A DNA stretch of 64,000 nucleotides from Bryopsis sp. KO-2023 (taxonomy: Eukaryota; Chlorophyta; Ulvophyceae; Bryopsidales; Bryopsidaceae). Positions 108 through 62,485 of this stretch are shown one piece after another. Location of the stretch: assembly GCA_030272585.1 (NCBI GenBank), contig BSYQ01000014.1, positions 1,116,001 through 1,180,000 of the forward strand, read 5' to 3'. Each line of letters starts with the position of its first letter. Positions within the stretch are counted from its first letter, which is position 1. A program made the translations under genes and the position numbers. Below the pieces are notes generated by a model. The model was not told where the DNA came from. It did not search any database and worked only from the letters and a program-made list of their open reading frames with translations.

Positions 108-1782
108 TGACTGGACAGGACAGTGCTGCCACCCCAAGCGCCCCTGGCCAGGAGGCTGCGTCGATGAAAAGTGCTTTAAAAACAGCGGTCGATGTCACTG
201 GAGACGCCACTGGCAGCGGGGGTACACCTGCACGCATCTTCAGGTCATCCGCGACCAGCTCTTATCCTTACACTGTTTCCTTGCGGAGAAGATCTGATCT
301 GGGTTACTTCTGCGCCGGCGTACTGGTGGGGAATAGACACGTTTTGACAGCAGCGCACTGCGTCGACTCGTCCACAACGTCGACCGACAGTCGACCTCAA
401 GTCGTCGTTGGCTCCGCGTACTTGTCAAAGACGTCAGGCAATGGGATCCAGGTACGAAATCGATCACGAATGTAAACAAGCTCCCAACCAGTGTATATTT
501 TTGTGGCCCATTGTGGCCCTTTTGGCCCATTTTGGCCCCCAAAAAAATCAGAATGGCAAATTTTGGGGCCACAAAAGGGCCAAAATGTTTTAATAGAAGA
601 CAAATTTGGGGCCACAAAAGGGCCACATTCCCCCGAAGTTTGTAAGGCCTGGGCCACATCCAAGAAATCAATCGAGTTCCCACAAAAATCAAAATCAACA
701 ACATTAAGTAAATGCTTATAAACACCAAGCCTTGTAATTTTTGTTTTTGAAGTTGGGGCCACATTCTATTTTTTTCGGACAGATTGGGGCCACAAAAGGG
801 CCACAACTGGATGAAACGGCCAAATTTAGGGCCACTTTGGGGCCAGTGAAATTGAAAAAAAATACACTGCTCCCAACGACGCACCCCTCGACAACATGTG
901 CTGTCACTGCGCAAAAATACCACCGACTACTAACAGGTCATTAGGATCACCCACCATGTGGGACCCCTCTACTGATGCATCCAGGAGCTTTGGGTGGGTA
1001 TGTTGATTAAGACTTGGTGGAGTGGGGGAAGGGGTCATTGGAGGAATGCTGGTTAAAGTCCTCCTAGCCTTTTGTTTTGTGGACGGGCAGGTCATCTCTA
1101 CCCAAAATGTTTTCCTCCACCCCAACTACAAATCCAATCGATCCCCTGATCTTGCCATTTTGGAGCTCTCAAGTGCAGCAAACCAAGCCCCTGTTCGAAT
1201 CCCAACCAGCACCAGCTTTCGCCCACAGAATGGCAATCTCCTGAGATCCATTGGGTGGGGTCGAACACGACGGGATTCGGGATTTTCTGACATCGCACAG
1301 GTTGTCCAAGTGGATTTCATTGACACGAGGCGCTGCAGGCGAATATTGCGCAAACCCGCACCCAAACACCAGATCTGCATGGGTGGAGATGGGGGTGGCT
1401 CTTGTCAAGGTGAACAACAGTTGCAGTAGATTGATTGCTTCATCAGGAATTCTCTGGAGGCAAAAGGAACCACTGAGTCGAGGTGTGTGTCTTGCCAAGG
1501 TGACGATGGAGGCCCCATCGTCCTACCCGGTAAAAGCAGGGCGAATGATGTTTTGGTTGGGATTGTGGGCTCTTCCCATGAGTGCGGAGGGTCCAGGCCT
1601 GATGTCCACACCAACATAGTGCCCTTTTCTGATTGGATCAAGTCAACTGCTGGTGCGGAGCATTTCCGATTGCATATCTCCTGAAATGTGGTTTTTGATT
1701 ATGGAATCAAAGTGATGCAAGACACCTGGTTGATTGAAACTTCAATGATGAGATTTTTTTTGTGTGCCTAGGCCTCCCCTGA
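108..1782 (+). CDS. SPH-A: secreted trypsin-fold pseudoprotease, 5'-partial
   Basis: Coding exons read as 108-451, 1091-1409, 1500-1652 and 1772-1782; phases match (1/0/1/1). Exon 2 begins after a CTCAG acceptor at 103-107, where all paralogues have one, so the signal-peptide exon lies left of the window; an in-frame ATG at 41 is a weaker alternative start. Visible S1 landmarks: PYTVSL, His57 in TAAHC, Asp102 in PDLAIL, WGR, Cys182/191/220 equivalents and the C-terminal DWI helix. The nucleophile motif is GDDGGP, so Ser195 is Asp. No IVGG-type activation site is seen. The last mini-exon gives Gly-Leu-Pro-stop after a strong T-rich acceptor. If intron 4 is not removed, translation runs to a TGA at 1682-1684. 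It is the only + strand copy. It is probably extracellular; the target is unknown. Confidence 0.8.
565..802 (+). repeat. Interspersed 17-bp words in intron 2 of SPH-A
   Basis: The word GGGGCCACAAAAGGGCC occurs three times exactly (565-581, 608-624, 786-802) in the 639-bp intron. Reverse-complement-like words (TTGTGGCCCTTTTGGCCC around 511-527) lie just upstream, so the intron RNA could fold back. No coding potential is evident. Confidence 0.75.
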
Positions 1783-2448
1783 TGAGACCTGTCCAAGACA
1801 TCTGAGAAAAACCCTGTTACATCTTGAAAACAGATTGCATTGAGATTTCATGTAACTTCAGTGTCGCTTGATCAAGTGGTTTTGTACTTGTAAATCATTT
1901 TGGTGAAAATTGACTTGACTGACCACCCGAGCCAGTTCACATCCGGCTGGGGCTGGTGGCAGACTTACAACAATATTTCATGTCGATTTGAAACAAACCA
2001 GCAAGAAACCTCCCATCTTATTCTGATTGAGCTGTCATTTCAGGAGGGGTTTAGTCATATACGTTCATGCTCTGAAAATCCAGCATTACAGAATTCGTGT
2101 CCTCCTTGCTGGAGTTTCACATGGCAGAAACCTCAGAAGACACAAAGCGACACCAAAGCGACATTGCTCCACCCCACACACTTTTATTGAAAAAGGGCTG
2201 CGAGTATTAAGTATTCTTTACAAAACATCTACAAGATTTTGCTCCATTCAAGACTACCTTCGATGGCAACAAAAAACAAACAAACTAGAAAGAAACCCAT
2301 ATGGTTTTCGAAAAAAACCCTCCTTACACCGAGTTGGGGTGTTTTGGTAGGCTTCCCCCCCCCCCCCCCCTCAATCCTGCACCCATGGAATCCCTTGCTC
2401 TCTATATGAAGTTTTGTTCAGGTCCCCCCCCCCAAATTGACCAGGTGA
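1783..2448. other. Convergent intergenic region
   Basis: This holds the 3' flank of SPH-A and of the opposing RBBP4-like gene. There are poly-C runs at about 2357-2370 and 2424-2433. No supported gene is seen. Confidence 0.5.
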
Positions 2449-8641
<6,193 letters not shown>

Positions 8642-10129
8642 TCACGGATTTCCTGAAACCACAATTTTTGTTTTTAAGCAAAAAAAAATTTGTTGTGAGA
8701 GAGCAATGCTAATAAAAAGAATTAACACTCTAAAGCTCTAGTCTGAAGCTCTCAGCTGCTGATTTCGGAGTGAAATGTGAAAGAAAAGAATCGACCCATT
8801 TCTTCAAAAATTGCATGTGTAGCCCAACTGGCCCAAGGTATCACAGGGAGCATATTCACCAACAACAAACATATCAAAAATATGCCTCCTCACCGGCGAT
8901 CGACTCGATCCATTCGATGTAGGGGGCTACATTGATGTGGACATCAGGTTTGGTGGACTTCCCACACACATGAGAGGAGCCCACAATGCCGACCAAAACA
9001 TCATCCGCTCTAAATCTAGTAAATCTAGTATTGCCAGGCAAAACAATGGGGCCTCCATCGTCACCTGGGAAGCATTTCCAGAAATGTTACTGCACGCACT
9101 TGCAGCTCCATTGCAAAAGTGTTGATTCTTGTATGATGCACCTCATTTGGCATGTGCATCCTCCATTGGCCCTACCTGGACAAGATCCAGCTCCACCTTC
9201 CCCCATGCAGATCTGATGGGGAAACACAGGTCTGCCCAACTGTGCGCTGCACCTCCTCAAACCGACGACCTTCACATTGGCAACCTGTATGGTTTCAGCA
9301 AATTCTGATGCCGAGGCTTTTCGTCCCCACCCCAGCAACCTCAGAAACTTGCCATGCTGTGGACGGAAGTCAGTGGAGGTCGGGATTCGAACAGGGGTGC
9401 TGTTTGTTGGACTGGAGAGGGCCAAAATGGCAAGATCAGGGTATTGTTTGGATTTGTAGCCGGGGTGAATGAAGACATCTTGTGTAGAAATGACCTGTTG
9501 AATCACCAAGAAAATATGATTGCCGCATGCCGTGACAACCTTGATCGTGTTGATAAAATCGCATTCATGAAGCTTCTGACGAGCGCACCTGGATCCCCTC
9601 TCCTGACGTCTTCGACGAGGAGGTGGTGCCCACGACGACTTCAGGTCGATCGTCGGCTGCGGTCAAGGACGAGTCGACGCAGTGCGCCGCCGTCAAGACG
9701 TGCTTTTTCCCCACCAACACGCCTGTACAGAAGTAGCCCAGTTCGGATCTCCTCCGCAAGGAAACAGTGTAAGGATAGGCAATCTCGCCCTGCGTGTTGA
9801 TTGCGGCCGAAGCACTGCGGCTCGCAGTGGACGATCTCGCTGCACTCGTTTGCCACTGCAGTGGCAATGGCTGTCCTCTTGTCTCTAATCATACAAACTA
9901 TGCAAGGATAAGCACGCTCGCAACGACGGAGTCATGTATGTGTTATCCTTCAGGTAGACAAGAGTTGTGTGTTTTCAACAAGGGGACAGGAGCCACTGAA
10001 CTCGCAAGACCGCTCTCCCGTTGATGCCACACAACACTCGAACCCGAGATCCTAACCTCTCAAGGCGCTTGCGAGGAACAGCGCCACGCAAAAACACAAC
10101 GTCCCCCTAGCTTGGAAGTGAAAACTCAT
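8642..10129 (-). CDS. SPH-B: secreted trypsin-fold pseudoprotease
   Basis: Exons (transcript order): 10129-10057, 9884-9589, 9494-9176, 9064-8894, 8652-8642; total 870 nt, 289 aa. Exon 1 encodes a signal peptide with a hydrophobic core (LCFCVALFLASA). Exon 2 has YPYTVSLRRRSELGYFC and TAAHC; exon 3 has YPDLAIL and the GWGRK loop; exon 4 has GDDGGP (Asp in place of Ser195) and SSHVCGKS. Exon 4 carries a 15-nt in-frame insertion formed by a repeated CTAGATTTA, adding five residues in the loop after GDDGGPIVLPG. The residue at the S1-pocket position 189 is Gly. The 11-nt exon 5 encodes Gly-Asn-Pro-stop. Confidence 0.85.
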
Positions 10130-10969: not shown

Positions 10970-12441
10970 TCATGGGATATCTGTGCAACACAAGAATCAT
11001 CAAAAATGCACACACAAAGAGGATTTATCACAAAAAAAACACTGCAGATCAGGGAAAAGAATAAGAAAACAGCAAGCAATAGATACAAAAAAAATCCTTC
11101 GCACCGGCAATCGACTCGATCCAATGGATGTAGGGCGCTACTTTTGTGTGGACATCAGGTTTGGTGGACTTCCCACACACATGAGAGGAGCCCAAGATTC
11201 CAACCAAAACATCATCTGCTCTAGTATCGCCAGGCAAAACAATGGGGCCGCCATCGTCACCTGGGAAGCATGTCCAGAAATGTTACTGCACGCACTTGCA
11301 GCCCCATTGCAAAAGTGTGGATTCTTCCATGATGTACCAAAAAAAATTTGGCATGTTTATTCTCCATTGGCCCTACCTGGACAAGAGCCATGTCCATCTC
11401 CGCCCATGCAGATCTGATGTCGAAACACACGTCTGGCCAATTTGCCCCTGCAACTCCTAAAATTGATGAACTTCACAGTGGCAACCTGCACGGTTTCAGC
11501 ATTGCCTGTCCTGGAGGCTTGACGTCCCCACCCCAGCAAACTCAGAAATTTGCCGTTCCGTGGACGGAAGTCCGTGGAGGTCGGGATTCGAACAGGGGCT
11601 TGGTTTGCTTCCCATGAGAGCTCCAAAATGGCAAGATCGGGGGATCGATTGGATTTGTAGTCGGGGTGGATGAAGACCTTTGGGGTGGAAATGACCTGTT
11701 GAATCGCAAATAGTATGCTTGCCGTGAATGTCTGCTGACGAGCTTCATTATTTCGATCGAAGTGAAAAGCTGCAGCTTGCTTTCGTACCTGGATCTTAAC
11801 GCCTGACGTCTTTGATGAGGAGGGGGTACCAATGACGACTTCAGGTCGACTGTCGGCGGCGGTCAAGGACGAATCGACGCAGTGCGCCGCCGTCAAGACG
11901 TGCTTTTTTCCCACCAACACGCCTGCACAGAAATGGCCCAGATCGGATCTCCTCCGCAAGGAAACGGCGTAAGGATTGGCGATCCTACCCTCCGAATCAA
12001 TTGCGGATGATCCCATCGATTGCACGCGTACGATAACCTTAAGAAGGGTCCGTGTCGAAAGACTCTGTCCTCGTGTCGCTGACGACAGAAACCACTGAAA
12101 GGATTAGCACACTCGCAAGGAAGGCGAAAGAAAAAAACACGTCTCGATGCAAATAGTGGGAGCCATTCCGTTCTAGGCAAAACTTTGGTGTGTCCGCTGG
12201 CCACAGTCGATGCTGATCCTTCAATGAAGGACCCCTTGGCGTACCCAGTGTGATATGCTTTGGGTGGCCAAGGCCAGGGGATTTTGATCATGGGGCGACC
12301 AGGGAAAAAAATCCTCAGGGAACCAAGCTGATATCCTTGTGCACAATCCTACATCGCAAGAATCTAACCTCCCAAGGCGATCGCCAGGAGGAGCGCCGCG
12401 TGGAAACGCAAGGTCGCCTTAGCTGGGACGTTGAAATTCAT
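10970..12441 (-). CDS. SPH-C: secreted trypsin-fold pseudoprotease
   Basis: Exons: 12441-12369, 12078-11789, 11695-11377, 11260-11105, 10980-10970; 849 nt, 282 aa. Signal peptide in exon 1 with core LRFHAALLLAIALGG. His57 (TAAHC) and Asp102 (SPDLAIL) are kept; the nucleophile motif is GDDGGP. Intron 2 (11788-11696) is 93 nt, a multiple of three with no in-frame stop, so exons 2 and 3 form one open frame and a retained-intron product with 31 extra residues would be possible. Intron 4 has a GTGCGA donor, weaker than the GTGAGG of neighbours. Mini-exon 5 gives Asp-Ile-Pro-stop. Confidence 0.85.
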
Positions 12442-13294: not shown

Positions 13295-15186
13295 TCATGG
13301 GATTTCTGTGGAAAACAAAGACGAATAAAAAAACTACCTAAAAGGATATATATTTCCAGTAAAACAAAAACAGAGTAATGTTGAGCGATAAAACTGGCTC
13401 TTTTCAGCTACTGATTTCGAAATGAGATGTGAAAGGAAACATCCAATGCCCCGAAAACTTCATCTGAAGCCTGAACTGGTCCCAAGGTACCACAAGCAGC
13501 AAAATTCACCGACACCACCACATAAATAAAAAAACAAGTCCCCTCACCGGCAATCGACTCGATCCACTCCATGTAGGGGGCTACTTTTGTGTGGACATCA
13601 GGTTTGGTAGACTTCCCACACACATGAGAGGAGCCCACAATGCCGACCAAAACATCATCCGATCTAGTATCGCCAGGCAAAACAATGGGGCCGCCATCGT
13701 CACCTGGGAAGCACATCCAACTGTTTTCCTTATCAATTTTTCCACAAACCGAAAACCAACGACTTTGTCAACCATTCCCATTCTTAAGAGGAGAACTCCA
13801 CAGGATTGCGATTGATGGTGTGGACACAAACCCATTCCATAACCCAAGTGCGGATTTCTTTCATATTGCACCTCATTTGGCATGTGTATCCTCCATTGGC
13901 CCTACCTGGACAAGATCCAGCTCCACCTCCACCCATGCACATCTGATGGGCAAACACACGTCTGCCCAATTGACCTCTGCAACTCCTCGAAGGGATGAAC
14001 TTCACAGTGCCAACCTGTATGGTTTCAGCATTGCCTGTCCTCGAGGCTTGACGTCCCCATCCCAGCAAACTCAGAAATTCGCCATTCTGTGGCAGGAAGT
14101 CGGTGGAGGTCGGGATTCGAACAGGGGCTTGGTTTGCTGCACTTGAGAGCTCCAAAACAGCAAGATCAGGGAATTGCGTGGATTTGTAGTCGGGGTGGAT
14201 GAAGACAGTTTGGGTGGAAATGACCTGTTGAATCGCAAAAAGACCATGCTTCAAAAGATGAAAAAAAAAAAAAAGATTTTGCCTTGCATTTCAGCTGATA
14301 GGCTTCATTATGTCGATCGAAGTCCACCAAAAAAAAAATTACAAGACATGCCAGGCCAGATCCTATAGCATCGGAGGGGTATGCAAAGAGAAACCTTGCT
14401 GGCAAGGTTTAAACGCTTTAATCGATTGATCCATTCAACTGAAAGCAAATCATCAACATAAGAAGCTAAATCAACCAAATATGTGAAAACCATACCCAAT
14501 GCTGTCAATATTCCCATGATAATCCCAATACTGTAAAAACCTGAAGCTGCAGCTTGCTTTCGCACCTGGATCCCATCGCCTGACGTCTTTGAGGAGGAGG
14601 GGGTACCCATGACGACTTCAGGTCGACTATCGGCGGCGGACAAGGACGAATCGACGCAGTGCGCCGCCGTCAAAACGTGCTTTTTCCCCACCAACACGCC
14701 TGCGCAGAAGTACCCAAGATCGGATCTCCTCCGTAAGGAAACGGCGTAAGGATTGGCGATGCCCTTATTTGCATCAATTGCGGCTGATCCACTCCATACA
14801 CTACTAGCAACAGCATGTTGGGCCCGTGTCGAAAGACTCTGTCCTCGTGTCACTGACCATGGAAACCAGTAAAAAAATAAGCAGACTCGAAGGCAAATGA
14901 AAAGCAACGCGCCCCAATGCAAATAGTGGAGCCACTCCTAGATCTAGGCAAAACTATCTATGAGGTGTCCTCAGTCGAGTGCTGATCCTTCAATGAAGGA
15001 TCCCTCCCAGTGTGGTATGCTTTGGGTGGCCAAGACCAGGGGATTTTGATCATGGGGCGACCAGGAAAAGATTGCTCCCTTTGGATATCCCCGTTGGACC
15101 ACGAGAATCTAACCTCCCAAGGCGATCGCCAGGAGGAGCGCCGCGCGAAAACACAAGACCCCCTCGGCTCGGAAGTTGAAACTCAT
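13295..15186 (-). CDS. SPH-D: secreted trypsin-fold pseudoprotease
   Basis: Exons: 15186-15114, 14852-14566, 14224-13906, 13703-13548, 13305-13295; 846 nt, 281 aa. Exon 1 codes a signal peptide (core RAALLLAIALG). Exon 2 has NPYAVSLRRRSDLGYFC, TAAHC and the conserved GTPSSSKTSGDGIQ end. Exon 3 has FPDLAVLELS and RRVFAHQMCMGGGG. Exon 4 has GDDGGPIVLPGDTRSDDVLV: Ser195 is Asp. Donor of intron 4 is GTGAGG; mini-exon 5 gives Glu-Ile-Pro-stop. The frame running on past the intron-4 donor is not conserved in SPH-E, which supports splicing there. Confidence 0.87.
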
Positions 15187-15798: not shown

Positions 15799-17472
15799 TC
15801 ATGGGACCCCTGTGGAATACAAGGACGAATAAAAAACCACAACATGGATATATATTTGCAGTGGGGGCCAAAAAGAGAGTAATGTTGAGCAAGAAAACTG
15901 GCACTTTTCGGCTACTGAATTCGAAATGAGATGTGAAAGAAAAAACAATGCTCCAAAAACTTTTTCGAAGGCCTGAACTGGTCCAAGGTACCACAAGCAG
16001 GATGTTCACCAACAAATAAATCATAAAAACATTTTCTCCTCCTACTGGCAATTGATTGAATCCAATCGATGTAGGGGGCTACACTGGTGTGAACATCTGG
16101 AGACGAAGATTTCCCACACACATGGGAGGATCCCACGATTCCAACTAACATACCATCCGCCCTGGCTCTACCAGGCAAAACAATGGGACCTCCATCGTCA
16201 CCTTGCAAGCACATGGAGAAATTGTTTACAGCATCCACTTGCATATGTGTGGATTCTTTCATGACTCACCCCAGGCTTTTTTTTCATGATGCACCTCATT
16301 TGGCATGTGTATTCTCCATTGGCCATACCTGGACAAGAGCCAGGTCCATCTCCACCCATGCAGAGCTGATGGGGAAACACTCGTCGTCCCAATTGTGCAC
16401 CGCACCTCCTCAAATTGACGAACTTTACAGATGCAACCTGCACGGTTTCAGCATTGCCTGTGCTCAAGGCTGTCCGGCCCCACCCCAGCAATCTCAAAAA
16501 GTCGCCATTTTGTGGACGGCAGTCAGTAGAGGTCGGGATTCGCACAGGGGCTTTCCTCGCTTTACTTGAGAGCTCCAAGATGGCAAGGTCAGGGTATCGA
16601 TCGGATTTGTAGTCAGGGTGGATGAAGACAGTTTGGGTGGAAATGACCTGTAGAAAAAGAAAATTCTCTTGCGGATTGGAGTCGTATTGCCTAACCAGTG
16701 ACCACCTTGATCATTATGACCAGATTGTGAAACCAATGCTTGTGATGTTCACACCTGGACCCCATCTCCTGACGTCTTTGACGAGGAGGGGGTGCCCACG
16801 ACGACTTCAGGTCGATCGTCGGCTGCGGACAAGGACGAGTCGACGCAGTGTGCCGCCGTCAAGACGTGCTTTCTCCCCACCAACACGCCTGTACAGAAGT
16901 ATCCCAGATCGGATCTCCTCCGCAAGGAAACAGTGTAAGGATAGGCAATCTCGCCATTCGCGTCGAGTGCGGCCGAACCGATAGTTTTTGCAAATGGTCT
17001 GCTCCCGATTCCACTCGTCGCAGAACCGATGCTATTTGTAGTCGCACTGCCGCTGGTTATAAGCGTCGGAGGATTCTGTCCTCGTGTCGCTGACCATCCA
17101 AACCAAATATCAATGCACTAAATATATTTACAGTACTTGTGTTTCGTGCAAAAAAGAAGAGCTCTTCTTCACGTTCAAGGAACTGAGGAGCGTTGTTGAA
17201 CGACACCCATGCTTGGGGGTGTCGGATGACCACAGTTACGCGTTAGTGTTGAAGGAACACACGGTTTTTTCAAAAGTGTAAGAACGTTGATCTCTTGTCC
17301 GCACTCGTGCGTTTTACTTCGGGTGGCCAACGTTTTGTTTATCAGAGAAGGTGTCGGAATATTTGGGGAGAGCAAGCTACGGAAACACAAGGGCCTAACC
17401 TTCCAACGCGATCGCCAGCAAGAGCGCCACACGAAAACACGAGACCCCGTTCGCTCGGAAGTTGTAACTCAT
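15799..17472 (-). CDS. SPH-E: secreted trypsin-fold pseudoprotease
   Basis: Exons: 17472-17400, 17089-16755, 16647-16329, 16201-16046, 15809-15799; 894 nt, 297 aa. Exon 2 is longer than in neighbours because the Ser/Thr/Gly/Ala-rich linker between signal peptide and protease fold is extended by some 15 residues. His57 and Asp102 are kept (TAAHC, YPDLAILELS); the nucleophile motif is GDDGGP. Loop Arg-rich GRARADGM replaces the usual GDTRADDV. Intron 4 starts GTAGGA and the codon split across it is AGG, so the C-terminus is Arg-Val-Pro. Confidence 0.85.
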
Positions 17473-21592: not shown

Positions 21593-21806
21593 GCTGTGAC
21601 GCTCCCCCTTACACCCGCATAGAAATCACTCTATGCGTACCCAAAACCTAATCAAAAACCCACTGCATCTCATGCAGTCTTTCTTCCTTTCAACCATACT
21701 GTTCATTTCACCTCTTGCACCCACATCAAAACTCCATTGAGTGTATTCAACACCCACATCAAACCCCCTATTAAGTGTATTCAACACTTCTAAGTCCTCC
21801 CTTATT

Positions 21807-37402: not shown

Positions 37403-37436
37403 TTCTGAGTCTTTATTTCCATCATTTATTGCTCCA

Positions 37437-39539: not shown

Positions 39540-39551
39540 GCTCCGAAACCA
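39540..39551 (-). other. Primer-binding site of element II
   Basis: TGGTTTCGGAGC in transcript sense, directly after the LTR; identical to the element I PBS. Confidence 0.9.
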
Positions 39552-42799: not shown

Positions 42800-44185
42800 C
42801 TAGCCGGCAATCGACTTGATCCAATCGATGTAGGGGGCCACTCTTGTGTGGACATCGGGTTTGGTAGACTTCCCACACACATGAGAGGAGCCAACGATTC
42901 CAACCAAAACATCATCCGATCTAGTATCGCCACGCAGAACAATGGGGCCTCCATCGTCACCTGGGAAGCACATCCAGAACACATGTACAGCAAACACTTT
43001 GCCAGCCCCATTGCAAAAGTGTGGATTCTTCCATGATGTACCAAAAAAAAACTTGGAATGTGCATTCTCCATTGGCCCTACCTGGACAAGAGCCAGGTCC
43101 ATCTCCGCCCATGCAAATCTGATGGGGAAACACTCGTCGTCCCAATTGTGCGCTGCAGCTCCTCAAATGGATGAACTTCACAGATGCAACCTGCAAAATC
43201 TCGGCATTGCCTGTCCTTGAGCCTTGACGTCCCCACCCATTGGATTTCAGAAGCTTGCCATTCTGTGGGCGAAAGTTGGTTGTGGTTGGGATTCGAACAG
43301 GGGCTTGGTTTGCTGCACTTGAAAGCTCCAAGATGGCAAGATCAGGGAATCGCCTGGATCTGTAGTCAGGGTGGATGAAGATATTTTGGGTGGAAATGAC
43401 CTATGGAAGAAGAAAATTCTTTTGCGCATCCTGCAGCCAGTGACTACCTTGATCATTTTGACCAGATTGTACAACCAATGCTTGTGATGGACACACCTGG
43501 ACCCCATCTCCTGACGTCTTTGACGAGGAGGGGGTGCCCACGACGACTTCAGGTCGACCGTCGGCTGCGGACAAGGACGAGTCCACGCAGTGCGCCGCCG
43601 TCAAAACGTGCCTTTTCCCTACCAATACCCCTGTACAAAAGTATCCCAGATCGGACCTCCTCCGCAAGGAAACAGTGTAAGGATACGCAATGTCGCCGTT
43701 TGCGTCAATCGACTCGAGTGATGCCGCACCGCCATTTAGTGCACGTGAAGCGTTAATACTCCTCGGAGAACCGAGAGCTGTTGCTCTTGCAGTCGCTCTG
43801 CTGCGGGTAAACGTCGGAGTTGTCTGTGCTGGAGTCGCTGACCACACAAACCAAATATCAATGCACTGGTTGGTACCCTCCGTGTTTGACGCATACCCCT
43901 ACTTTGGGGTGTTGGATGGGCACAGTTGAGTACTGAAGGAACACGCAGCTTTTTCGGAAGTGAAAAGAACGTTGATCTTTTGCCTGCACCCGCGGGATAT
44001 ACTTCAGGTGGTGGCCATGAATTGTCTTCTCAAGTCTGCATGATCCAGGGAAGCTCACAGGGGGTGTCGGAAAATCTGGGGAGAGCAAGCTACGGCAACA
44101 CAAGGGTCTAACCTTCCAACGCGATCACCAGCAAGAGCGCTACACGAAAACACGAGACCTCCTTGGCTCGGAAGTTGAAACTCAT
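42800..44185 (-). CDS. SPH-H: secreted trypsin-fold pseudoprotease, shortened exon structure
   Basis: Exons: 44185-44113, 43837-43497, 43400-43082, 42960-42800; 894 nt, 297 aa. The intron-4 donor is changed from GT to GC, and the resulting sequence GGC TAG puts a stop right after the DWIKSIAG end, so four coding exons suffice. Long Ala/Thr/Arg/Ser-rich linker between signal peptide and fold (exon 2 is 341 nt). His57 in TAAHC and Asp102 in FPDLAILELS kept; nucleophile motif GDDGGP. PVF HQICMGGDGPGSC loop is standard for the array; Gly at position 189. Confidence 0.86.
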
Positions 44186-45478: not shown

Positions 45479-48400
45479 TCATGAGATCCCTGCAGAGGAA
45501 CACGAAAAAAAATGACACATAAATAAATAGATAAATTAAATAATAACAATAATAATAATGCTATAAACAACATAAAAAATAAGCGGTCTGTATACATATA
45601 CAATGCATGCCGCTTTATCCAACACATTCGGGCGGCGAGTTTTTTGCTTCAGTATGCGGCTGATTTACAATACGAAATCCGACATTTGCATTCTCAGTCG
45701 ACTCGAACTTCAGAAAACTCATCAATAGTGGCGTGCCGCTTCAACTGGTGTCGAAGGAATCGTCCCAACGAATTTGATGTCCAGACAACAAAAGCAGAAA
45801 CTCGACGAATTTGTATTCTCTTTGGATTCTATTCATATTTTGTTCGACTGTTTCGCATTCCCTTTGCACCCCGCGTCCTCTCGTTCGACGATTCTCGTCT
45901 GAAATTTGCGAGAGCTGTGATTTATTACCCGAAATTAAAGATCGATTAAACGGCCCCCCCCTCCCCCCTGAAAATTCCGTTCCTGGCGATTTTGCTTTAG
46001 AAAACGACTCGCTGCAGTATCTCAATATCTAGAGATCCGATACTGAGCGTTGAAAAGGTTGCATCGCGAAATCAAACATCCAAAAAAAAAGGGGTCGCAA
46101 AACAAGGGGTCGCAAAGCATTTTGAAAAAAATATTTTTACTTTATTTTTTGCAACCCCCCCTTTTTTTTTTAATGCGCAGTTACTGGAAGAAGAAGAAAA
46201 AAAACGGCTCGATTCCTTGAAAGGGTTTGGCAGCTTAATAAAAAAGTTTTTAATCTTTTGAGGAATTGTTTCAAAAAAGTTTTACGACAGAGTTTTTTTT
46301 CATCACCGATTCCAAGGGGGGAGGGGAAATATATGAAAGATAAAATATAAACAGAATACATATGTATATTAGGATGCCCCAAAAATCCTATGTTCATTTG
46401 GTTACGAAATTTTCAAAACACTCTATTGACTTTCTGCACTTCAGTTGGGTACCGCTTGGGCTCCAAGGGTAATGTTAATATTTTTTAATTTTAATATTTT
46501 CTTAATTTCAAAGATGCAGAAAAAAAAGACCTTAAAGCATATCTGAAATCGAAAATCATTTTGAGATGACATCTCAAAACGCTTCAATTTCTACCATCAT
46601 GCAAAAAAAACCTGATACGAAAAAACCAGCAACAGCAAGCGGTGGGAGCCATATCTCTCGTTTAGCATGTAACCATTTGATTGATTTATTGATTTATTTA
46701 TTTATTTATTTAAACCTCAACACAAAACACTGGAAAGAAATCCACTACTGATTTATCCCCCCCCAAAAAAAAAAAATTGAAAAAAAAACCCCTCTAGATG
46801 CCTGAGCAATGCGCACGAAAATATAGAAGATATGTTTCAGTTACCAGCAGTGGTTCGGATCCAATCCACGTAAGGCCAGACATTAGTGTGAACATCAGGT
46901 TTGTTGGATCTGCCACACACATGGGAGGAGCCCACGATTCCAACCAAAACATCATCCGCTCTAGTATCGCCAGGCAAAACAATGGGGCCTCCATTATCAC
47001 CTGAGCATCAAACCCCCCCAAAAAAAACACAACAGTTTCAGGTGAGAAAGACATTTCCACAGTTCAATATTTCGACACTGCTGTTACACAACAGATGGGC
47101 TCATCGAGGCTTTTTCCCTCAGTGGAATTCAGCACAATAATAAATAACAGCAGACAGACATACAGACATACAGAAAACATAAGAGAGCGATACTCTGATA
47201 TTGCATATTCATATTGTGGGATCAAGATATATATTATATATTCTAAGAATATCTAAGAAGAATATTTGATGAGAATTTTGGGGATTGTGCATGTTGCACA
47301 CATTTGCTTTAAAAAAGGGAAAAAAAAATAAGAATAATAAATAATAATAAAGGAAACCCACTGGTGTTTTTTTTTCCTTAAAAGCAAAAAAAAAGGGGGG
47401 GGGGGAATATTGATCGAACGGACTTCCTTTCCCATATTCTGTTTCAACGGCTTTTTTTCCAATATTTTTTTGAACGGTTTTCGTTTCCTGGATTTTTTTT
47501 TTCTTTTTCGGTTTGTTTGGGTAGCAAAAAAAAAACACGACCCCCCAATTCCTTTCGAAAAAAAAAAAAAAAACAGGGGAGAAAAAAAATGGAATTACCT
47601 TCGCAAGTACTGGGTCCCTCGCCACCCATGCAAACCTGGTGATTGAAAACGGGGCCAAACACCCTCTGGACACATGTTCTCCTCAGCATGTAGTTCATGC
47701 TGGCGATCTGCACGATCTCAGAATTCCCGGAGCTGGAGGATTTTCGCCCCCAGCCGATGGCCAGCAGAGCATCGCCCCTCCTAGGAACAAACTTTGCTGG
47801 AAGTTGGACCGGGGTTTTGTTTGCATCGTTCTCCAGCTCCAGAATTGCCAAATCGGGGGCCCGCTGGGATCGATAGTTGGGATGGACGTACGCATTCACG
47901 GTCGCAATGGTCTGTTGATTTTTCCCACAAAAAATAAATAAAAATGGGGAAATGGTGCCCAAGAAAAATGCATCAGCATGCATGTGTTGCAATTTTACTG
48001 AACCACCACAAAAAATTGGGGAAATGGGAAAAGGAAAAAGGATCAGCATGCATATGTGGGTGAGGGAATGCATGCAATTATATTGAATCACTACGTTTTG
48101 CAGCAAGCTAAAAAGAGGGCGTCGATGCTGGTATGAGTATATATATTTACTGATATTTTCTAAAAATAAGAAAATAATAGTGCCCTCCCACAACAGCCAA
48201 CCCCCTACCAAACGGACGCACCCGCGCACCGCTCTGTGGGTGTCCTATTCGATATGACCAATGTATGACTAATTTTTCACCGTTCTGTCTGTCTGGGGAA
48301 CTGCCGGACGCACCTGGACCCCGACGCCTGACGTCTCTGACGAGGAGGCGGAGCCGACGACGACTTCAGGTCGATCGTCGCTCGATGTCCTTGCCGTATC

Positions 48401-49093
48401 CAAGCAGTGCGCCGCCGTCAAGACGTGCCTTTTCCCTATCAGTACGCCAGCGCAAAAGTAGCCCAGATCCGATCTCCTGCGCAGGGAAACTGTGTACGGA
48501 TGACTGATTTCGAACTGGGCGTTGGTGCCCGCTGCACCCGCAAACGAGGTTGTGGCAAATTCCCCTGGATCGGCGATAAATTCGAAGATTATGGGTTCGG
48601 GTTCCCTAATTGCCAATCCTGGAGCAGATACAGCAGCTCCCAAAGCCTCTGGCACGTCCTCTTCGGGGAGAAAAACTTGCTGTTCCAAGAAAACACCTGT
48701 CGTGCCGCGGGGAAAAAAACACAAAAAACACAAATATGAAAATGTGTGAGAGGACAAAAGTACAGCGAAAACCCCAGCAGGCAACCGGAAAGAAAAAGAT
48801 GCCTCCGCCAACGTGCGACATATCGTTGCGCGCGCATGGATAGCACCGTGCTCTTTTCTAATCAACGCGTTTCTTTCCCAGCGCGCGCTCGTTTGTCGGC
48901 TTCGTGACATGAAAATTTGCTTTTCCGAAAACAAGAAAAGAAACAATCCATCAGGAAAACAGACGAAAAAAGGTACGGGGGCATCGAAACCATCCAAAAC
49001 TCCCGAAAACGTCCGATAAAAACCCTTACCTTTCGCACAGCAAAACAAAAAGAAGAAAATTGAGAGCTTCGCCTGGAACTCCCGGACACTCAT
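45479..49093 (-). CDS. SPH-I: divergent secreted trypsin-fold pseudoprotease (Asn195)
   Basis: Exons: 49093-49030, 48696-48314, 47911-47599, 47000-46845, 45489-45479; 927 nt, 308 aa. Signal peptide core LSIFFFLFCCAKG. Exon 2 has a linker rich in Glu, Pro and Ala, then HPYTVSLRRRSDLGYFC and TAAHCLD. Exon 3 has APDLAILELE and HQVCMGGEGPSTCEG. Exon 4 has GDNGGP: Asn for Ser195. The last intron would be 1355 bp, far longer than the 80-390 bp of its relatives; without splicing the protein ends at a TGA at 46837-46839 (Gly-Asn-stop). The mini-exon (Gly-Ile-Ser-stop) and its flank are conserved, so I prefer the spliced form, with doubt. Confidence 0.72.
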
Positions 49094-51879: not shown

Positions 51880-54299
51880 TCAGGTCAACTCAGCCTTCCC
51901 CACACCTGAATCTCCCCCAGCTGCATTTAAACAGGTGATAAAAAATCAATAAAAAATATTACTCACCGACAACTCTCTCGATCCATTCCATGGCATGAGC
52001 GACGCTCGCGTGGACGTCAATCACCTGTTCACCACAGGCATGGTCCTCTCCAACGATGGCCACCACCAAATCAGGGCTTCCATCCAAAACCACGGGTCCT
52101 CCGTTATCACCTAGGATTAGAACACACATGCTGACTGATAAGAAGCTGCGAAACAACCAACTGAATGACTGCCAACCCAATCCACTTGCCGGAGGGATGT
52201 TTTGTAGTGTTGTGAACTGTGCCGAATTGAAAAGGTAAGATAAAAAAGACGATGCTCGGCCCCACCGATTGATCGCACAGGGTGGAGAGTTTGAGAACGT
52301 TGCTCTAAAACCAAATTAGAAAAGAAAAGTAATACTCTGGAGTGTTGGGTCGAAACTGAAACTGTCTTTTGCCAAGGTGAGTCTAGAGCATATCTAGGGA
52401 ACTGTTTTCTATGTTGTCATAAAGGTGTCATTTCCCATCTCCACAGATACAACTCTATTCCCCAAAAAAACTACAATGAAAAGAGAGTCGGAGCACTTGC
52501 TGGATGCTCCACACACACACAGCTTCTGCAACCTCATTACCCAACCGAACACCCCTTGAGCCTGTAAATTTTGAAACTAAAAACTGTTCTCCCACAACTT
52601 TATTCCACGAGGGCGGCGGCTAAGACACCATTGTATCATCTATGCTCCTGTTTTCATGTACCTTTGCAAGTTCCAGCTCCTGCTCCTCCCATGCACACGT
52701 TGAAGGATGGAATGAATTTCCCCCTCATCAGCTCGCAGGTGTCTTTCACGACGAACTTCATGTTCACCGCCCTCAACTTCTTGGACCTGCGTCCACCTTC
52801 AGTTGGCTTTCCCCAGCCCAAGGCCGTCACGACAGACTCGGGAGCTGGCTCGAACCTCTTGGTCGGCAAGGAAGCAGGAGGCACCTTGGCTGATTTTTTC
52901 AAAGTCAAAATAGCAAGGTCGGGACGACCAGCTGAAGAACCTGGGTTGAAATCGACCTTGGCCGTTCCCAACACCTGTTATGGCCATGCAAGCATATTTG
53001 AATTAGGTAATGCCCCAGTTCCTTTATGGAGAGATGCACCTTGCATGTATATTGGTGTTGCTTGAGAATGAGGCTAGGTTGAAAGAGCATTTCCCCCAAG
53101 CCTACCCCCCAGTTGTTTTGTTTGAAGGTTTGTTGCCAACATACACCAAGTTCCACAGTGGGCAGTTCAAGCCACACATTGTGCAGGGGATTGTATTTTA
53201 GGTGAGGAGCCAGAGTGGTAAGACGCTGACCTTGACTCCAGGACCTGACGACTTGGTTGGTGAGTCTGAACCCACGACGACCTTCGGCATGACGTCACCG
53301 TTCAACAAAAAGGCGTCCACACAGTGAGCCGCTGTCAAAACATGCTTGCTCTTCTTCCCAATCACCACACCCGCGCAGATGTACCCCAAGTCGGACCTTC
53401 TCCTGAGAGACACCACGTAAGGGTGCTTTTCAATGACTTCCGCGTCTGGTTCCAAGTTGGGGACGGTCTCATCGTCTTCAGCCTCTGGTGCGACGACAAC
53501 TGGGTCGGGAACAGCCACTGGTGGTTCAGCGACTACCGCGGGCTTGGCAGCGACTGGTGGTTCTACGACGATCACTGGCTCAGGGACAGCCTCAGGGACG
53601 ACCACTGGGTCGGCAACAGCTGGTACCGCAGGAGCGACAACTGGGTCAGCAACAACAGCAGGCACAGGAGCAACCACAGCCGCAGGAACCACGGGAGCGA
53701 CCACAGGCGCAGGAGTCACTGCGGGAGCGACCACGGGCGCAGGAGTCACTGCGGGAACGACCACGGGTGCAGGTGTCACCGCGGGAACGACCACGGGTGC
53801 AGGAGTCACTGCGGGAACGACCACGGGTGCAGGGATAGCCGCGGGCGCAGGAACGACCACCGCGGGTGCAGGAGCAACCACGGGCGCAGGATTGACAACG
53901 GGCGCAGGAGCTACCACCGCGGGCACAGGAGTAACCACGGCCGCAGGAACAGCCGCTGGCTGTGCAACATTCTGTGGTTGTGCGGCTGGCACTTGCTGAG
54001 GAGCGACTACTTGCGCGACAGCAGGCTCTGGTGTCGAGACTACCGACGGAGCAACGACAGCATCGACGGCAGCTGCGGGGTTGGCTTGTGCTGGCTGGCT
54101 ATTAACAACAGCTGAGGAAAGCAGGAAAACCGTAGTTGCAACCTCGAATCTTTGTCTATCGGTGAGCGAGAAAGCACAGTGCTGGGCATGAACAGTACGA
54201 AGCACGAATATTAGGAAACTTTGTGTTTTCTATACCTTGTTGGGCGTCCGCCGCGAATAGCAAGACGAAGCAGGTCACCAAGGAGAGCATCCCACGCAT
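51880..54299 (-). CDS. SPH-J: pseudoprotease with Pro/Ala/Val-rich N-terminal region (Asn195)
   Basis: Exons: 54299-54236, 54111-53231, 52974-52662, 52110-51967, 51920-51880; 1443 nt, 480 aa. Signal peptide core MLSLVTCFVLLFAADA. Residues about 25-235 are a low-complexity linker built of Ala, Val and Pro, including repeats of PAVTPAPVVV, turning acidic at the end. The trypsin fold follows: HPYVVSLRRRSDLGYIC, TAAHCVD, RPDLAIL, NVCMGGAGAGTCKG, then GDNGGP (Asn for Ser195). Exon 4 is 12 nt shorter than in the B-H group. The last exon is inferred; if intron 4 is kept, the protein ends Gly-Glu-stop at 51959. Confidence 0.8.
53690..53850. repeat. 30-bp coding tandem repeat in SPH-J exon 2
   Basis: Four to five units encoding PAVTPAPVV(V/A) with high nucleotide identity (ACCACGGGTGCAGG words recur about every 30 bp in + sense). 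Confidence 0.8.
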
Positions 54300-55987: not shown

Positions 55988-57650
55988 ATGGCAGGTAATA
56001 TATCCAGCTCCATTGCTTACCAAACAGCCAAACAAACAAGAATGCTGCCCAACGCAGCCTGTGCTTACATGACCTGGCAAGTTCGTATCTTCAACGGACG
56101 AACGCAAGGGATCTCAAGTTGATATTCCTTGACTGCCGTCGTTCCGCGTCCAGGCTGACAGTCGACAGTGCTCGACACTGTTTGAAATCTTTTCAGAAGG
56201 TGAAGATCGAACGATTCTAGTTGTGGGGAGGACAGGAGCTGGAAAATCGGAATTCGTGAAGAGAGTAGTCACGGAGGGGGCCACCGACGTTCAAGACACT
56301 CCGGAAGTCTCGTCAGGTGTGAGCTCCTCGACGGAGCATAGCAAGACATACCCAGTGCCAGGCCTAATAGACAGCGCGAAATACCACCTCGTGGACACGA
56401 GGGGGTGGATGGATGTGTCCGACAAAGACAAAGGCGCTTTGGAGCAGCTTGCAGATTTGATACAGAATACAGATAACATTGTTGGCGTCGTGTACCTTCT
56501 TCCTGGCAGAATGGAAAAGAGTGAGGTGGAACTCTTCGACTTTTTGTTCAGTTCTTTCTTTCAACACGTTCCCCCCTCCAAACTGTTGGTTGTGAAGTCC
56601 AAGTGCAACTCTTGGGAGAGCTTTAATGTGGCTGCCGAAAAAGAGCAACTCAGACGAGAGGGGAAAGTGCCCTCCATCATGCTGGTAGCAGAGTGGGTTG
56701 CGGTGGATTTCCACCCCAAAAATACTGCCCAGGAAAATTCCCAGATGGTGGAGAAACTTCGCGAGCAATTTTCGACGTGAGTGTGCGATCTTCCTTCAAT
56801 TTTCGACAAGTTGTCGATTTCCTGTTGCTAGTGCGCTCGTAGATAATGATGCATATGCCATATGTACAGTGTACCAGGCGAAACTCGCGGTTGGTTTTGT
56901 ACAGTATATATAACTCAGCCCATGTTCACTTTGTGGGGCGTTGATATGCACCTCACCGCCAACAGGTGCAAGCAGTTCTAAGCCTCGAGCACCTTCATTC
57001 TTCACATATACACATATATAAATTTATACATCCCATACCATGTTCATCATTAATATTGGTGAGTCTAACTTAGAATCATTTCGTGGCATCTCTGGTAACA
57101 GTTGCGCTTTATTTCTTTCCTGCAGGTGGAGGGGTCGGCTTACGGTGCAAGCCACGTACAAGGAATACATCACGAAAATCCATGCCGCTCGCTTGGAACT
57201 GGCGGCGCTGGCAGGATGCAAAAGAGACCTTGAGCTTCTGAACGAAGTAAGATATGTAGTTCTTTGCCAACTGCGTCTCAAATAGTCAAAAATGTATCAA
57301 TACGTGTCAGACTCGAGTCTGCTGGAGCTCCAGCAGCGTACGAGAACTTCCTAGTGGATGAAAGTCGTTTTCCAAAAAGAGTGTTCATTCACGCCTGACT
57401 CCCTGAAATGTTTGCTCTTACTCTGGAACAGCTTCTCGATGGACCTTTCGCTGAAAGGAAAGAAAACCAGGAAGAAATCAAAAGGCTGCAGACTAGGATC
57501 AAGGGGAACCAGTATCACGAAGAGGCGAAGTGTGTCGAAGATATAGTTGCTAAAATCAACGAGGAGCACCAAAAAGTTATGAACGAAATGATGGAGAGGA
57601 TGCAAATATCGTTCGCATCCAAAAAAGGGCTTTTCTGCACTATTATGTAG
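55988..57650 (+). CDS. AIG1/GIMAP-like GTPase with C-terminal CaaX box
   Basis: Exons: 55988-55994, 56197-56776, 57126-57246, 57432-57650; 927 nt, 308 aa. Exon 1 is only 7 nt (ATG GCA G) and was chosen because it alone gives a good start, a GTAATA donor and the right phase, producing MAEGEDRTILVVGRTGAGKS. G1 P-loop GRTGAGKS at residues 13-20; G3 DTRGW at 69-73; KSKCNSW near 135 could serve as G4. The C-terminal third is Glu/Lys-rich and probably coiled coil. It ends KKGLFCTIM, a CaaX box with Met, suggesting prenylation (farnesyl) and membrane attachment. Such GTPases act at membranes in immunity or stress in plants and animals; the role here is unknown. The family call rests on these motifs and length. 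Confidence 0.82.
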
Positions 57651-58852: not shown

Positions 58853-61800
58853 TCATTTTCCAGCTGATGTGGTGTTACAGCACATCACATCAGCACACCA
58901 TTTCATTCTCTGTTTTTTTCGCTTTCACAGCGAGATGTAACACTCACTAATGGTCTCTCTTATCCAATCAATGGACGTTGCAACATTGTTGTGCACATCG
59001 ATCATCGGTTCTCCACATGCATGCTGACTTCCAACAATCCCAACCAAAAGATCAGGATTTCTTTCAGCAACAATGGGCCCACCATCGTCACCTGACAGAC
59101 AGAATTATCAAAAATTGGGTGAATAAGTCTGCAGCATTGCCAACGAAAAGCCATGGCAATGAAGTTTGCATGCCATAATTTGTTACTCGTGAATCGATAT
59201 CAGCAGAGAAATATGAGTCATAATGTTTTTACTATTCGACGTTCGACGAACTTCCAATCTCGATGGAAAGGTCTGCCCTTCCTATTACCTGCGGTAACTA
59301 ATGAATTTGTAACTGAATCTCTTTCTAAATCCTGACTTCTTTGCTGGGTTTGAAGAAAGTTCAGACTGCTTAGATCAAGCATGCTAGCTGTGCCTTCTGT
59401 GCTCAGCTGATAACAATATTATTCCTGAAAAACATTTGAAATTGATTCTCTGCTCACCGCTACAGGAACTTCCTCCCTCTCCTCCCACACACAAATTGAA
59501 GTCCGGAATGTCTCTGTTCAACGACTGGGAGCAAGTATCTCTTGGCACGAAGGTGGTCCGGAAGAACTGCACTAAATCAGAAAAAGCTGATTGTCTGGAA
59601 GTCCTTCCCCACCCAATGCCAACAACATTCTCTCCTCCATTTGGAAGGAAATCGGCTGAATTTGGCAGCCGGATCGGTCCCTGGTTTGCTCTTCTGGCTA
59701 GCTTCAATATGGCAAGGTCCGGCTTTCCCCCAGATGTTCCGGGATGGAGAGTGACACTATCCGTGGACACCACCTGTGAAGTATGGCACCGACTCAAACG
59801 CAACAGAATTCAAATTTCAACCTGGGAACAAAATCCGCCATGGTTGTTCTCCGTCACAACGCATATCTCAATGGCGGTAGGAGCACATGCTGCATTGCCA
59901 GAAACCATGTACACACGAATAATTCTCGCGAAAGGGGTTGGGAACACCTTGCTAGCGACAAACTTTTTCCTGTCAGCGTTTCGGATACCTGGATGTCTGG
60001 ACCCGACGTTTGGGACAAACGTGCCGACCCGATGACGACTTCAGGTTGAGTATCCCCTCCCGGTAGTGAAGAGTCCACACAGTGTGCCGCCGTCAACACA
60101 TGCCTCCTGCGGATCAACACGCCAGCGCAGAAATACCCAAGATCGGATCGCCGCCTCAGGGAAACGACATAAGGTTTTATAAGAGCGTTGTTCCCGCCTT
60201 GTCCCCCGTTGCCTTGATTCCCGTTGTTGCCATTTGAGTTTCCCTGACCTTCATTGTTTTCTTGCCCTTGTCCCCCCTGCCCCTGTCCTTGTCCTTGCCC
60301 TTGCGGTTGTGCTGCAGTTGAGAAAGGAGCGTCGGACGGAAAAAAACCATTTTGTGCGCCCCCCTGACCAGGCGCTCCTGCTTGTCCCAGGATATCTGAA
60401 ATGGTGAGCACTTGTACCAGTTGTGGATCCGGTTGAACCACTGGAATCAGTGTGGTGACCACTGGAACTGGTTGCACCACTGGGACTGGTGCGGGAACTA
60501 CTGGTACTGGTGCAGGAACCGGTTCTTGAACTGGCGCAGGAACCACTTCTGGGGATGGCTCACGTTCCGGGAGTAGGTCAAAGAGCATAGGTCGCGGGCG
60601 CTGCACGACTGCTTGTGGTGCTTGTGTTTCCTGAACCACAGGGGCTATAGGTGGATTTGTTCCTCCAGGAACCCCACCACTGGCTGGTGGCGGTGTACTC
60701 GCCCCATTCAGGACAGGTTCTGTCTCGGGTGGTGGTGCTGGTATGCTTGGCTCAAAGGTATATGGTTCAGGGGCACTTGTTGTGACGGGTGGTGGTGCTG
60801 GCGTGTTCGGCTCGGGGATATCTGGTTCAGGGGCACTTGTTGTGACGGTTGTTGGCGTGTTCGGCTCAGGGATATCTGGTTCAGGGGCACTTGTTGTGAC
60901 GGGTGCTGGCGTGTTCGGCTCAGGGATATCTGGTTCAGGGGCACTTGTTGTGACGGGTGCTGGCGTGCTCGGCTTAGGGACACTTGTTGTGATGGGCGCT
61001 GGCGTGCTCGAGGTTCCAGCGATAGCAGGTGCGGGTGATATCCGTCTCTGGCTTATGGCTTCGGCTGTAGATGCGAATATGGATGATGTTGGTGCACCAG
61101 AAGTTTGCCCCTGGCTGGTGGGCGTCACCACCGAGCTCCTCCCGAATCCTGTGCCCCCACCTGAAGAAAAACACAAGTTTTCTCAAAGACTCTAATAAAC
61201 AGTGAAAACTGAGGAAGATGAGCTAGTTGACCTGGCCTAGTGATTCATTCCCGGAGCGATCGCATTGTGCAACTCTGGCGACCATCTATTTTGTTTCTAC
61301 GCGCGGAATTCTACCGTGACCACAGGAGCGGCTTCTGGACATTCCCCTTTCTAGTTTCAAAACATTGGAGGGTATTGTCAGCCCGGCATATTGTGTTTTT
61401 CGCGCCAAATTTTCGCAGATATGTGGTCGTTTTCAAGATATCCGCGAGGAGTTGGAGACACAAAGAGGTCTCGAGTTGTCTGACTGCGAGGCTGCCATAG
61501 CCACGACATAGCCCTGGTCGCCCTGTATTCCGGAATGTTTGGGGATTCCCCAACCTGTGCCCTGGAAGGGGATTTGCTTCATCACAGAAAATGCCCTGAA
61601 CCCAGGGCCCCTTATTTCACGCTTGCTCTTCACGTTTCATGCCGGCACTGGGATTGCTGGAGTATGACTAGCGCAGCCAAAAGCCTCATTGCTGTACAGC
61701 ACATTTGCAAATCTTCCAAAGAAATACTATCCTCCCATTCCGACCGATCTGGATTTGTTTGCAGCCCCCTGTATCCCAGGATCCGGTGAATTTTCCCCTT

Positions 61801-62485
61801 CTTTCGCTCCGAACGGGTGGACAAATACAGCTTACCGACCACCCTCCAAAATCAGATTTTTCATTTCTCTGGTGTCGATCGCTCTTTCCGTCCTGCCACC
61901 TTCCGATGTCGAATCCAACAATTTCCCAAAATTTACTGCGTTCGCCTCAGGGGAAGCCTTGGTATCACAGTGGTTGGGCTGTTGTTCCCACGCTTATAAA
62001 TACGAAACCACAAGGCCAGCCCGACAATTCCCGACCTCGGTGACTCAATATCCGTCACCAGTTCGCGCCGGGTCCTTAGAGCCTTTTCCGTGGAGAATTT
62101 ATTGCGACCACCTGGAGCTTCCCTCGCAAACTTTCGGCGTTCTGTTCACAGCTTTCTCGAAGGGAATTCACAAGCCCCAGAGTTCCGTGGGATCTCACGG
62201 CGAGGATGCTTCCCTTGGGGCTGATCCGGTACCTTTGTTATCCCGGTGCGTTGAACTCGCCCAACGACGAGATCGAGGTTGCGCGCGCAAAACTAAAAAA
62301 GGGACCAAACAGTGTCTCCGAAACATCCACTCAAGCTGTGCAGGTTCACAAGAGACGTCGACGGAGCCTCGCAAAGCGATCTGTGTTGTGAGGTTGTGAG
62401 CCGTCATACCTAGAAGATCCAGGCGCTGAGCGTCCGTAAACAGGAGGAGGACCGACAGGATGGCTAACGAGAGGGGGGCCTTCAT
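58853..62485 (-). CDS. SPH-K: pseudoprotease with long Thr/Pro/Glu-rich N-terminal region
   Basis: Exons: 62485-62410, 61160-59989, 59773-59458, 59091-58948, 58863-58853; 1719 nt, 572 aa. Signal peptide core LAILSVLLLFTDAQ. Exon 2 codes a mucin-like region with repeats of PVTTSAPEPDIPEPNT, then PVPVV stretches, then a Gln/Gly/Asn-rich part (QGQGQGQGQGG). The fold follows: KPYVVSLRRRSDLGYFC, TAAHC, KPDLAILKL, NLCVGGEGGSSCSG and GDDGGP (Asp for Ser195). Position 189 is Ser. The loop after the motif is shortened as in SPH-J. Mini-exon 5 gives Thr-Gly-Lys-stop after an 84-bp intron; reading through instead gives CYISL-stop at 58925. Intron 1 is 1249 bp. Probably an extracellular, perhaps O-glycosylated, binding protein. 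Confidence 0.82.
60745..60990. repeat. Coding tandem repeat in SPH-K exon 2
   Basis: Four to five near-identical units, about 54-63 bp, each encoding a PVTTSAPEPDIPEPNTPA-like block; the words CAGGGGCACTTGTTGTGACG recur in + sense. Confidence 0.85.

Follow-up and report, generated by a model that had tools for sequence, protein, structure and literature searches.

Aspartate or asparagine in place of the catalytic serine in a trypsin-fold gene family of the green alga Bryopsis

Serine protease homologues (SPHs) are proteins with an S1 domain in which at least one residue of the catalytic triad has been replaced. In Tenebrio molitor, one survey counts 125 of them, with His57 kept in 42 of the 125; residue 195, the place of the nucleophile, is Gly in 26, Thr in 21, Asn in 11, Leu in 10, Val in 9 and Ile in 7, and other residues, Asp included, occur one to four times each (PMC11172050). 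The DNA described here, 64,000 nucleotides from Bryopsis sp. KO-2023 (contig BSYQ01000014.1, positions 1,116,001 to 1,180,000; hereafter the window), holds eleven trypsin-fold genes, SPH-A to SPH-K, that possess such a domain and carry Asp or Asn instead of Ser195. They belong to a family of at least 20 members in the genome.

By sequence, the algal family belongs with the serine protease homologues. With arthropod SPHs it shares the S1A domain, a triad substitution, a mostly secreted nature (predicted for the alga) and many copies beside paralogues that have Ser195, and an acidic residue 226 as well as Asn or Asp at 195 are present there too (PMC11172050). It differs from them in its host, a green alga, in the restriction of residue 195 to Asp or Asn, and in its His57 and Asp102, fixed in 19 of 19 copies. 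A clip domain, as in the clip-domain SPHs of arthropods, was not seen in SPH-F, the one window gene of eleven scanned with part of its N-terminus. That profile scan, which began shortly past the signal exon, returned trypsin families only, and the long N-termini of SPH-J and SPH-K lay outside it.

Other described systems share further parts of the picture. The inactive S1 paralogues of the scabies mite (SMIPP-S) are likewise multicopy and act by binding, but they are parasite proteins with known complement targets (PMC4031079, PMC7815109). PRSS23 is, as the algal proteins are predicted to be, a secreted S1 pseudoprotease without the Ile16-Asp194 activation switch; its triad is intact, whereas the algal family lacks Ser195 and is multicopy (PMC13194640). 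Protein Z, from the same source, is also a pseudoprotease and acts as a cofactor. Protein Z has Asp in the nucleophile's place, has lost His57 too and contains other domains. The S1 pseudoproteases of the literature cited here are animal proteins, and the algal family with its at least 20 members is from a green alga. Phytophthora glucanase inhibitor proteins are secreted, inactive trypsin-fold proteins that act on host molecules; they are likened to the algal family by description only. No paper on this family was among the matches listed from the open-licence literature, which does not prove the family unpublished; a text match for GDDGGP in that literature found none, which says little. Kept by selection, with a single consistent kind of replacement at 195 and with invariant His57 and Asp102, the family lends itself well to the question why a dead trypsin site is retained.

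Residue 195 and the shared gene plan

Eleven matches to GGNGAYRAYGGNGGNCC occur in the window, against none in 100 dinucleotide shuffles. The motif reads GDDGGP in SPH-A, B, C, D, E, F, H and K and GDNGGP in SPH-G, I and J, eight copies with Asp and three with Asn, which bears out the claim of an earlier note on this DNA that all eleven trypsin-fold genes lack the catalytic serine. The genes follow a common plan. A signal-like exon 1 comes first; exon 2 encodes His57 and is separated by a phase 0 intron from exon 3, which encodes Asp102, and a phase 1 intron that falls within codon 193 leads on to exon 4 and residue 195. Exons 2, 3 and 4 of the spliced models are open and both His57 and Asp102 are kept in 11/11 window genes, as the same note had described; several starts of exon 2, like exon 1 of SPH-I, J and K, have candidate status. 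Between Gly193 and the stop codon, SPH-D, E, F and G (4/11) have 96-125 residues, and a further intron is possible there. All four spliced proteins scanned (SPH-F, I, J and K of the eleven) match the Pfam Trypsin profile (PF00089) at 106-139 bits, above the cut-off of 20.6.

Because codon 195 lies within exon 4, six bases from its start in all eleven window genes, and the preceding intron splits codon 193, no splice choice with these exons yields Ser195. Recovery of the serine by alternative splicing, which the earlier note had already dismissed, is ruled out for the exons seen.

The surrounding core is strictly kept. Under a numbering assigned by hand from PDB alignments, 19 of 19 family copies share the disulphide cysteines Cys42, 58, 168, 182, 191 and 220, His57, Asp102, Gly193, Asp194, Gly196, Gly197, Pro198, Gly214, Asp226 and His228. 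Synonymous codon variation occurs at 57, 102, 194, 195 and 226; Asp195, for instance, is written GAT in 13 copies and GAC in 3. Position 215, next to the invariant Gly214, is Ser, Ala or Glu, where trypsin has Ser and Trp at 214 and 215 in the PDB alignment. Gly occupies position 189 in 17 copies and Ser in 2; at position 190, 17 copies have Ser and 2 have Thr. Since some crab and insect enzymes likewise have an acidic residue at 226 (PMC11172050), a ligand-binding pocket of Gly(Ser)189 and Asp226 may persist.

The proteins are probably secreted via a signal peptide. By hydrophobicity scan, a similar signal exon of the MSFNFRAEGVLCFRAALLLAIALG type is found in 14 of the 20 family copies, plus SPH-A; SPH-I, J and K have other signal exon candidates, and the scan found none for the copy L42.

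Extent of the family and origin of the substitution

The genome scanned comprises 91.09 Mb in 28 contigs (numbered here with a C; loci outside the window are numbered with an L), and the window is part of contig C14. An assembly of Bryopsis sp. KO-2023, GCA_030272585.1, is named in PMC12509668. Among the 107 light-harvesting protein matches in the genome, a count made per exon, one matches PDB chain 6igz_7 (Lhca-h), an entry from Bryopsis corticulans, at 374 bits over 165 residues, against 278 for the runner-up, and a second has LHCI-2 of entry 9vfj as its best match, at 251 bits; a siphonous green alga of the Bryopsis type is the most likely host by these matches. At least 20 family members were found, 17 with Asp and 3 with Asn at 195, of which 18 lie on C14, one on C4 and one on C6; the searches score best candidates only, and the count is a lower bound. 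Ser195 occurs in none of the 20 members found by the genome pattern and protein searches. The Asp/Asn pattern has 24 sites genome-wide, against five for a backward-read control, and their translated flanks assign 20 to the family, three to distant S1-like genes (C7, C8, C9) and one to an unrelated gene on C10. The last, a GDNGGP at C10:3878741, has flanks that are not S1 and was excluded from the family count; its gene may be sulfatase-like.

In a protein search queried with exon 4, the top 18 places go to family members; three relatives on C5 come next, and SPH-K and SPH-J stand lower, separated from each other by the C8 gene and a Ser195 gene of C1. The C5 relatives read GDGGGP, GDGGGP and GDAGSP at the motif, the copy with Ala having Thr at position 57 as well; the C8 gene has Asn at 102, and another relative, on C7, reads GDKGAP. 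Within the family, the copy at C14:1273.6 kb (L044), outside the window, is interrupted in exon 3 before Cys191 and is likely a pseudogene. Two others on C14, at 1303.9 kb (L045) and 1328.5 kb (L046), are a single synonymous base apart in their aligned coding part, at codon 195 itself (GAT/GAC), a recent duplication.

The same genome is rich in sites with the serine. GDSGGP occurs at 94 sites (93 TCN, 1 AGY), against none for the backward controls, a count in which S1 identity was not confirmed site by site and variants such as NDSGGP (L001) are not included. The genome-wide look at residue 195 that the earlier note had called for sets these sites against 20 family members found, none of them with Ser. 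Contig C4 holds a large GDSGGP cluster at about 0.5-2.6 Mb, and two genes from there (L054, L055) have E-Q-G-G or P-Q-G-G at the activation place. The same applies to L061, so that all three multi-exon Ser195 genes fetched have E/P-Q-G-G instead of I-V-G-G. Among the eight single-exon Ser195 genes fetched, four have IIGG or IVGG (L003, L005, L007, L008) and one VVGG (L006); L002 and L004 are without an activation motif and L001 is unclear. As for the family, an R/K-I/V-V/I-G-G activation site was found in none of the 11 window genes by pattern and in none of 7 of the 8 others by eye. The exception, and the one copy of 19 with R-[IV]-[VI]-G-G, is that on C6 (L049, C6:270 kb), whose R-I-I-G-G in the N-terminal part of exon 2 is, by hand count, about six residues more distant from the domain than its trypsin counterpart and is a possible remnant of an activation site. 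SPH-E and SPH-G have K-T-I-G-S near the expected place.

A tree of 34 rows, with eight Ser195 genes chosen from those fetched and most Ser195 genes of the genome outside it, joins the 19 copies in a single clade (99/96) within a clade of 22 rows (100/99), the remaining rows of which carry Gly, Gly and Ala. Residue 195 changes at least seven times on this tree, and at least two changes are between Ser and non-Ser. A single clade of all Asp/Asn rows, a grouping that omits the Gly and Ala sisters, is rejected (p 0.0015), and one of all non-Ser rows is not (p 0.149); the tree has long branches, and the serine may have been lost once or several times. With Gly, Gly and Ala at 195 in the closest sisters, the loss of Ser probably preceded the fixation of Asp. 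The sister copy at C5:3068 kb has the Ala codon GCT, which is one step from TCT and one step from either GAT (Asp) or GGT (Gly), and a codon route from Ser through Ala to Asp appears favoured. Asn195 may have arisen three times separately, or may have moved into SPH-I with a converted tract; SPH-J is far from both SPH-I and the group of SPH-B to SPH-H (the B-H group).

A shared origin of every Asp195 gene in the genome is questionable in view of the rejected Asp/Asn clade, from which the Gly and Ala sisters are missing, and of distant genes with Asp195 on C7, C8, C9 and C5 (GDDGAP). These S1-like genes outside the clade, L050 (C7), L051 (C8), L052 (C9) and L068 (C5:67 kb), read GDDGAP or GDDGGP, and Asp195 may have arisen more than once. 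Gly195 sites outside the clade, at L065 (C5:931 kb, GDGGAP) and at C4:1332211 and C4:1353167 (GDGGGP), possibly mark other pseudoproteases.

Constraint and possible roles

The genes look maintained by purifying selection. A codon alignment of 19 of the 20 copies, the broken one omitted, gives 171 pairs, of which 132 are usable; their ratio of nonsynonymous to synonymous rates (dN/dS) has a median of 0.35 and a range of 0.23-0.56. The other 39 pairs were dropped because the synonymous rate was outside 0.05-1.2 or saturated. In the B-H group (8 copies including that on C6, 28 pairs), exons 2/3/4 have values of 0.24/0.50/0.12; the other group, with 7 copies and 21 pairs, has 0.23/0.64/0.35, and SPH-I, J and K and one near-identical copy are in neither group. 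Exon 4 is the tightest exon of the B-H group and exon 3 the loosest in both. The dN/dS check on exons 2-4 that the earlier note had proposed returns values below 1 in every usable pair and from 0.12 to 0.64 by exon, and its view of maintained rather than decaying genes stands. Moreover, 59 of 210 ungapped columns are invariant across the 19 copies, 54 of the 59 with more than one codon, and 19/20 copies have an open frame across exons 2-4, along with splice signals. SPH-J and SPH-K retain every core residue, though at the DNA level exon 3 of these two shares only about 46-56% identity with that of other copies.

Exon 4 of SPH-I has an identical run of 70 bases with SPH-F (Asp) and of 50 bases with SPH-G (Asn), against a longest identical exon 4 run of 38 bases between the two main groups, and its exon 3 is 53-59% identical to those of B-H copies; the tract was likely converted from the B-H group. 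Such conversion, together with the interrupted copy at C14:1273.6 kb, would suit a view of the genes as neutral relics, non-functional duplicates in which Asp or Asn hitch-hiked by gene conversion. This is nevertheless very unlikely in the face of the dN/dS values, the open frames and splice signals, and the intact cores of the divergent SPH-J and SPH-K. An even more improbable alternative is that Asp195-His57-Asp102 form a working triad with a carboxylate nucleophile. Asp195 would attack carbon and His57 would activate water for release of the ester, the target being electrophilic carbon, for example in alkyl halides, epoxides or activated esters; the Asn copies would be inactive, serve as non-catalytic partners or be matured by deamidation at Asn195-Gly196. 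Asp nucleophile triads are found in haloalkane dehalogenases and alpha/beta-type epoxide hydrolases, and in a different fold esterases and haloalkane dehalogenases differ by the same exchange of Ser for Asp; we know of no carboxylate-nucleophile chemistry in the trypsin fold. The invariance of His57, Asp102 and Gly193, the tight exon 4 of the B-H group and the retention of Asp195 through synonymous codon change are in keeping with a working site, but Asn in 3 of 20 members is contrary for those copies, and the Gly and Ser/Ala/Glu at 214/215 depart from the Ser and Trp of trypsin. The acid-assisted chemistry through Asp/Asn195 that the earlier note had entertained finds no support, because Asn cannot act as an acid and the Gly and Ala of the sisters suggest that the site died before Asp arrived; the absence of I-V-G-G adds to this, though weakly. 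Asp-His-Asp catalysis in the family is very unlikely.

We consider it likely that this tandem family is a secreted S1A pseudoprotease scaffold, non-proteolytic and engaged in binding partners. The expanded family of secreted pseudoproteases proposed in the earlier note is supported in this form by the signal-like exons, dN/dS and core residues, with secretion as probable. The proteins would be exported by a signal peptide and folded as a rigid scaffold, Asp or Asn195 in the nucleophile's place beside His57 would shut the site to catalysis, and the cleft and the faster-evolving loops of exon 3 would bind partners, the likeliest being substrates, inhibitors or zymogens of the genome's many Ser195-bearing S1 proteins. 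Several points weigh against this reading. In the second group, exon 2 (0.23) is tighter than exon 4 (0.35), and conversion may inflate the apparent constraint. The signal peptides rest on a hydrophobicity scan. The missing I-V-G-G alone does not mark a dead enzyme in this alga and is weak evidence, because the three multi-exon Ser195 genes fetched are without it too. Finally, the strict retention of His57 and Asp102 is not needed by a pure scaffold, and only 42 of the 125 Tenebrio homologues have His57; our guess is that they are kept for a structural ion pair with Asp195.

What such a scaffold would do can be narrowed only tentatively. It is possible that the proteins are regulators or decoys of the alga's own proteases, and the abundance of GDSGGP sites in the same genome would allow regulators and their enzymes to be looked for as pairs in a single species. 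Somewhat more doubtful is an outward role as inhibitors or decoys against enzymes of grazers, microbes or pathogens. The many copies, the faster exon 3 (0.50-0.64) and the signal-like exons are compatible with it, and the scabies mite paralogues inhibit the complement pathway, whose components they bind (PMC4031079); the exon 3 values are below 1, however, and hence show no diversifying selection, and these data do not separate such a role from regulation of the alga's own proteases. As decoys or cofactors, the scaffold proteins could also act, for instance, in the wound response of this giant-celled alga and its cell sap, a role that we regard as unlikely. The Bryopsis wound and protoplast response involves lectins (PMC3252328), which makes an extracellular regulator plausible and is not evidence for one.

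Coordinates and other elements of the window

The SPH genes, of which SPH-A lies on the forward strand and the other ten on the reverse, are listed below with the other elements. Position 108 is a candidate acceptor of SPH-A exon 2, and exon 1 of this gene lies outside the window, about 220 bp left of its start (L041 position 5781). The long extensions of SPH-J and SPH-K are of low complexity.

Table 1. Positions, within the window, of the SPH genes and other elements
Feature	Span	Strand	Exon 1	Exon 2	Exon 3	Exon 4	Codon 195
SPH-A	108-1684	+		108-451	1091-1409	1500-1684	GAT (Asp) 1505-1507
SPH-B	8874-10129	-	10129-10057 (signal-like)	ending 9589 (start not fixed)	9494-9176	9064-8874	GAT (Asp) 9059-9057
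SPH-C	11049-12441	-	12441-12369	12078-11789 (candidate start)	11695-11377	11260-11049	GAT (Asp) 11255-11253
SPH-D	13408-15186	-	15186-15114	14852-14566 (candidate start)	14224-13906	13703-13408 (open-frame end; true end may be earlier)	GAT (Asp) 13698-13696
SPH-E	15912-17472	-	17472-17400	17089-16755 (candidate start)	16647-16329	16201-15912 (open-frame end)	GAT (Asp) 16196-16194
SPH-F	18374-20109	-	20109-20037	19751-19456 (candidate start)	19227-18909	18750-18374 (open-frame end)	GAT (Asp) 18745-18743
Putative LTR retroelement	20211-32404						
U2 spliceosomal RNA gene	33415-33607	-					
Second retroelement	34454-39763						
SPH-G	40404-42083	-	42083-42011	ending 41486 (start not fixed)	41242-40924	40699-40404 (open-frame end)	AAT (Asn) 40694-40692
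SPH-H	42800-44185	-	44185-44113	43837-43497 (candidate start)	43400-43082	42960-42800	GAT (Asp) 42955-42953
SPH-I	46837-49093	-	49093-49030 (candidate)	ending 48314 (start not fixed)	47911-47599	47000-46837 (tract apparently converted from B-H group)	AAT (Asn) 46995-46993
SPH-J	51959-54299	-	54299-54236 (candidate)	ending 53231 (start not fixed), long Pro/Ala/Val-rich extension	52974-52662	52110-51959	AAC (Asn) 52105-52103
GTPase-domain frame	56133-56780						
SPH-K	58925-62485	-	candidate from 62485 (signal-like MKAPLSLAILSVLLLFTDAQ; donor not fixed)	ending 59989 (start not fixed), long Pro/Thr/Gly-rich extension	59773-59458	59091-58925	GAT (Asp) 59086-59084

Between SPH-F and SPH-G, two direct repeats of 1382 bp (20211-21592 and 31023-32404), 100% identical, enclose retroelement frames, of which one has an integrase core; the whole reads as a very recent insertion of a long terminal repeat (LTR) retroelement. 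The second retroelement has identical end repeats of 212 bp (34454-34665 and 39552-39763) and a frame at 34679-37471 with reverse transcriptase, RNase H and integrase domains. The U2 RNA gene scores 132.4 bits over its full length, and the frame between SPH-J and SPH-K encodes an MMR_HSR1 GTPase domain.

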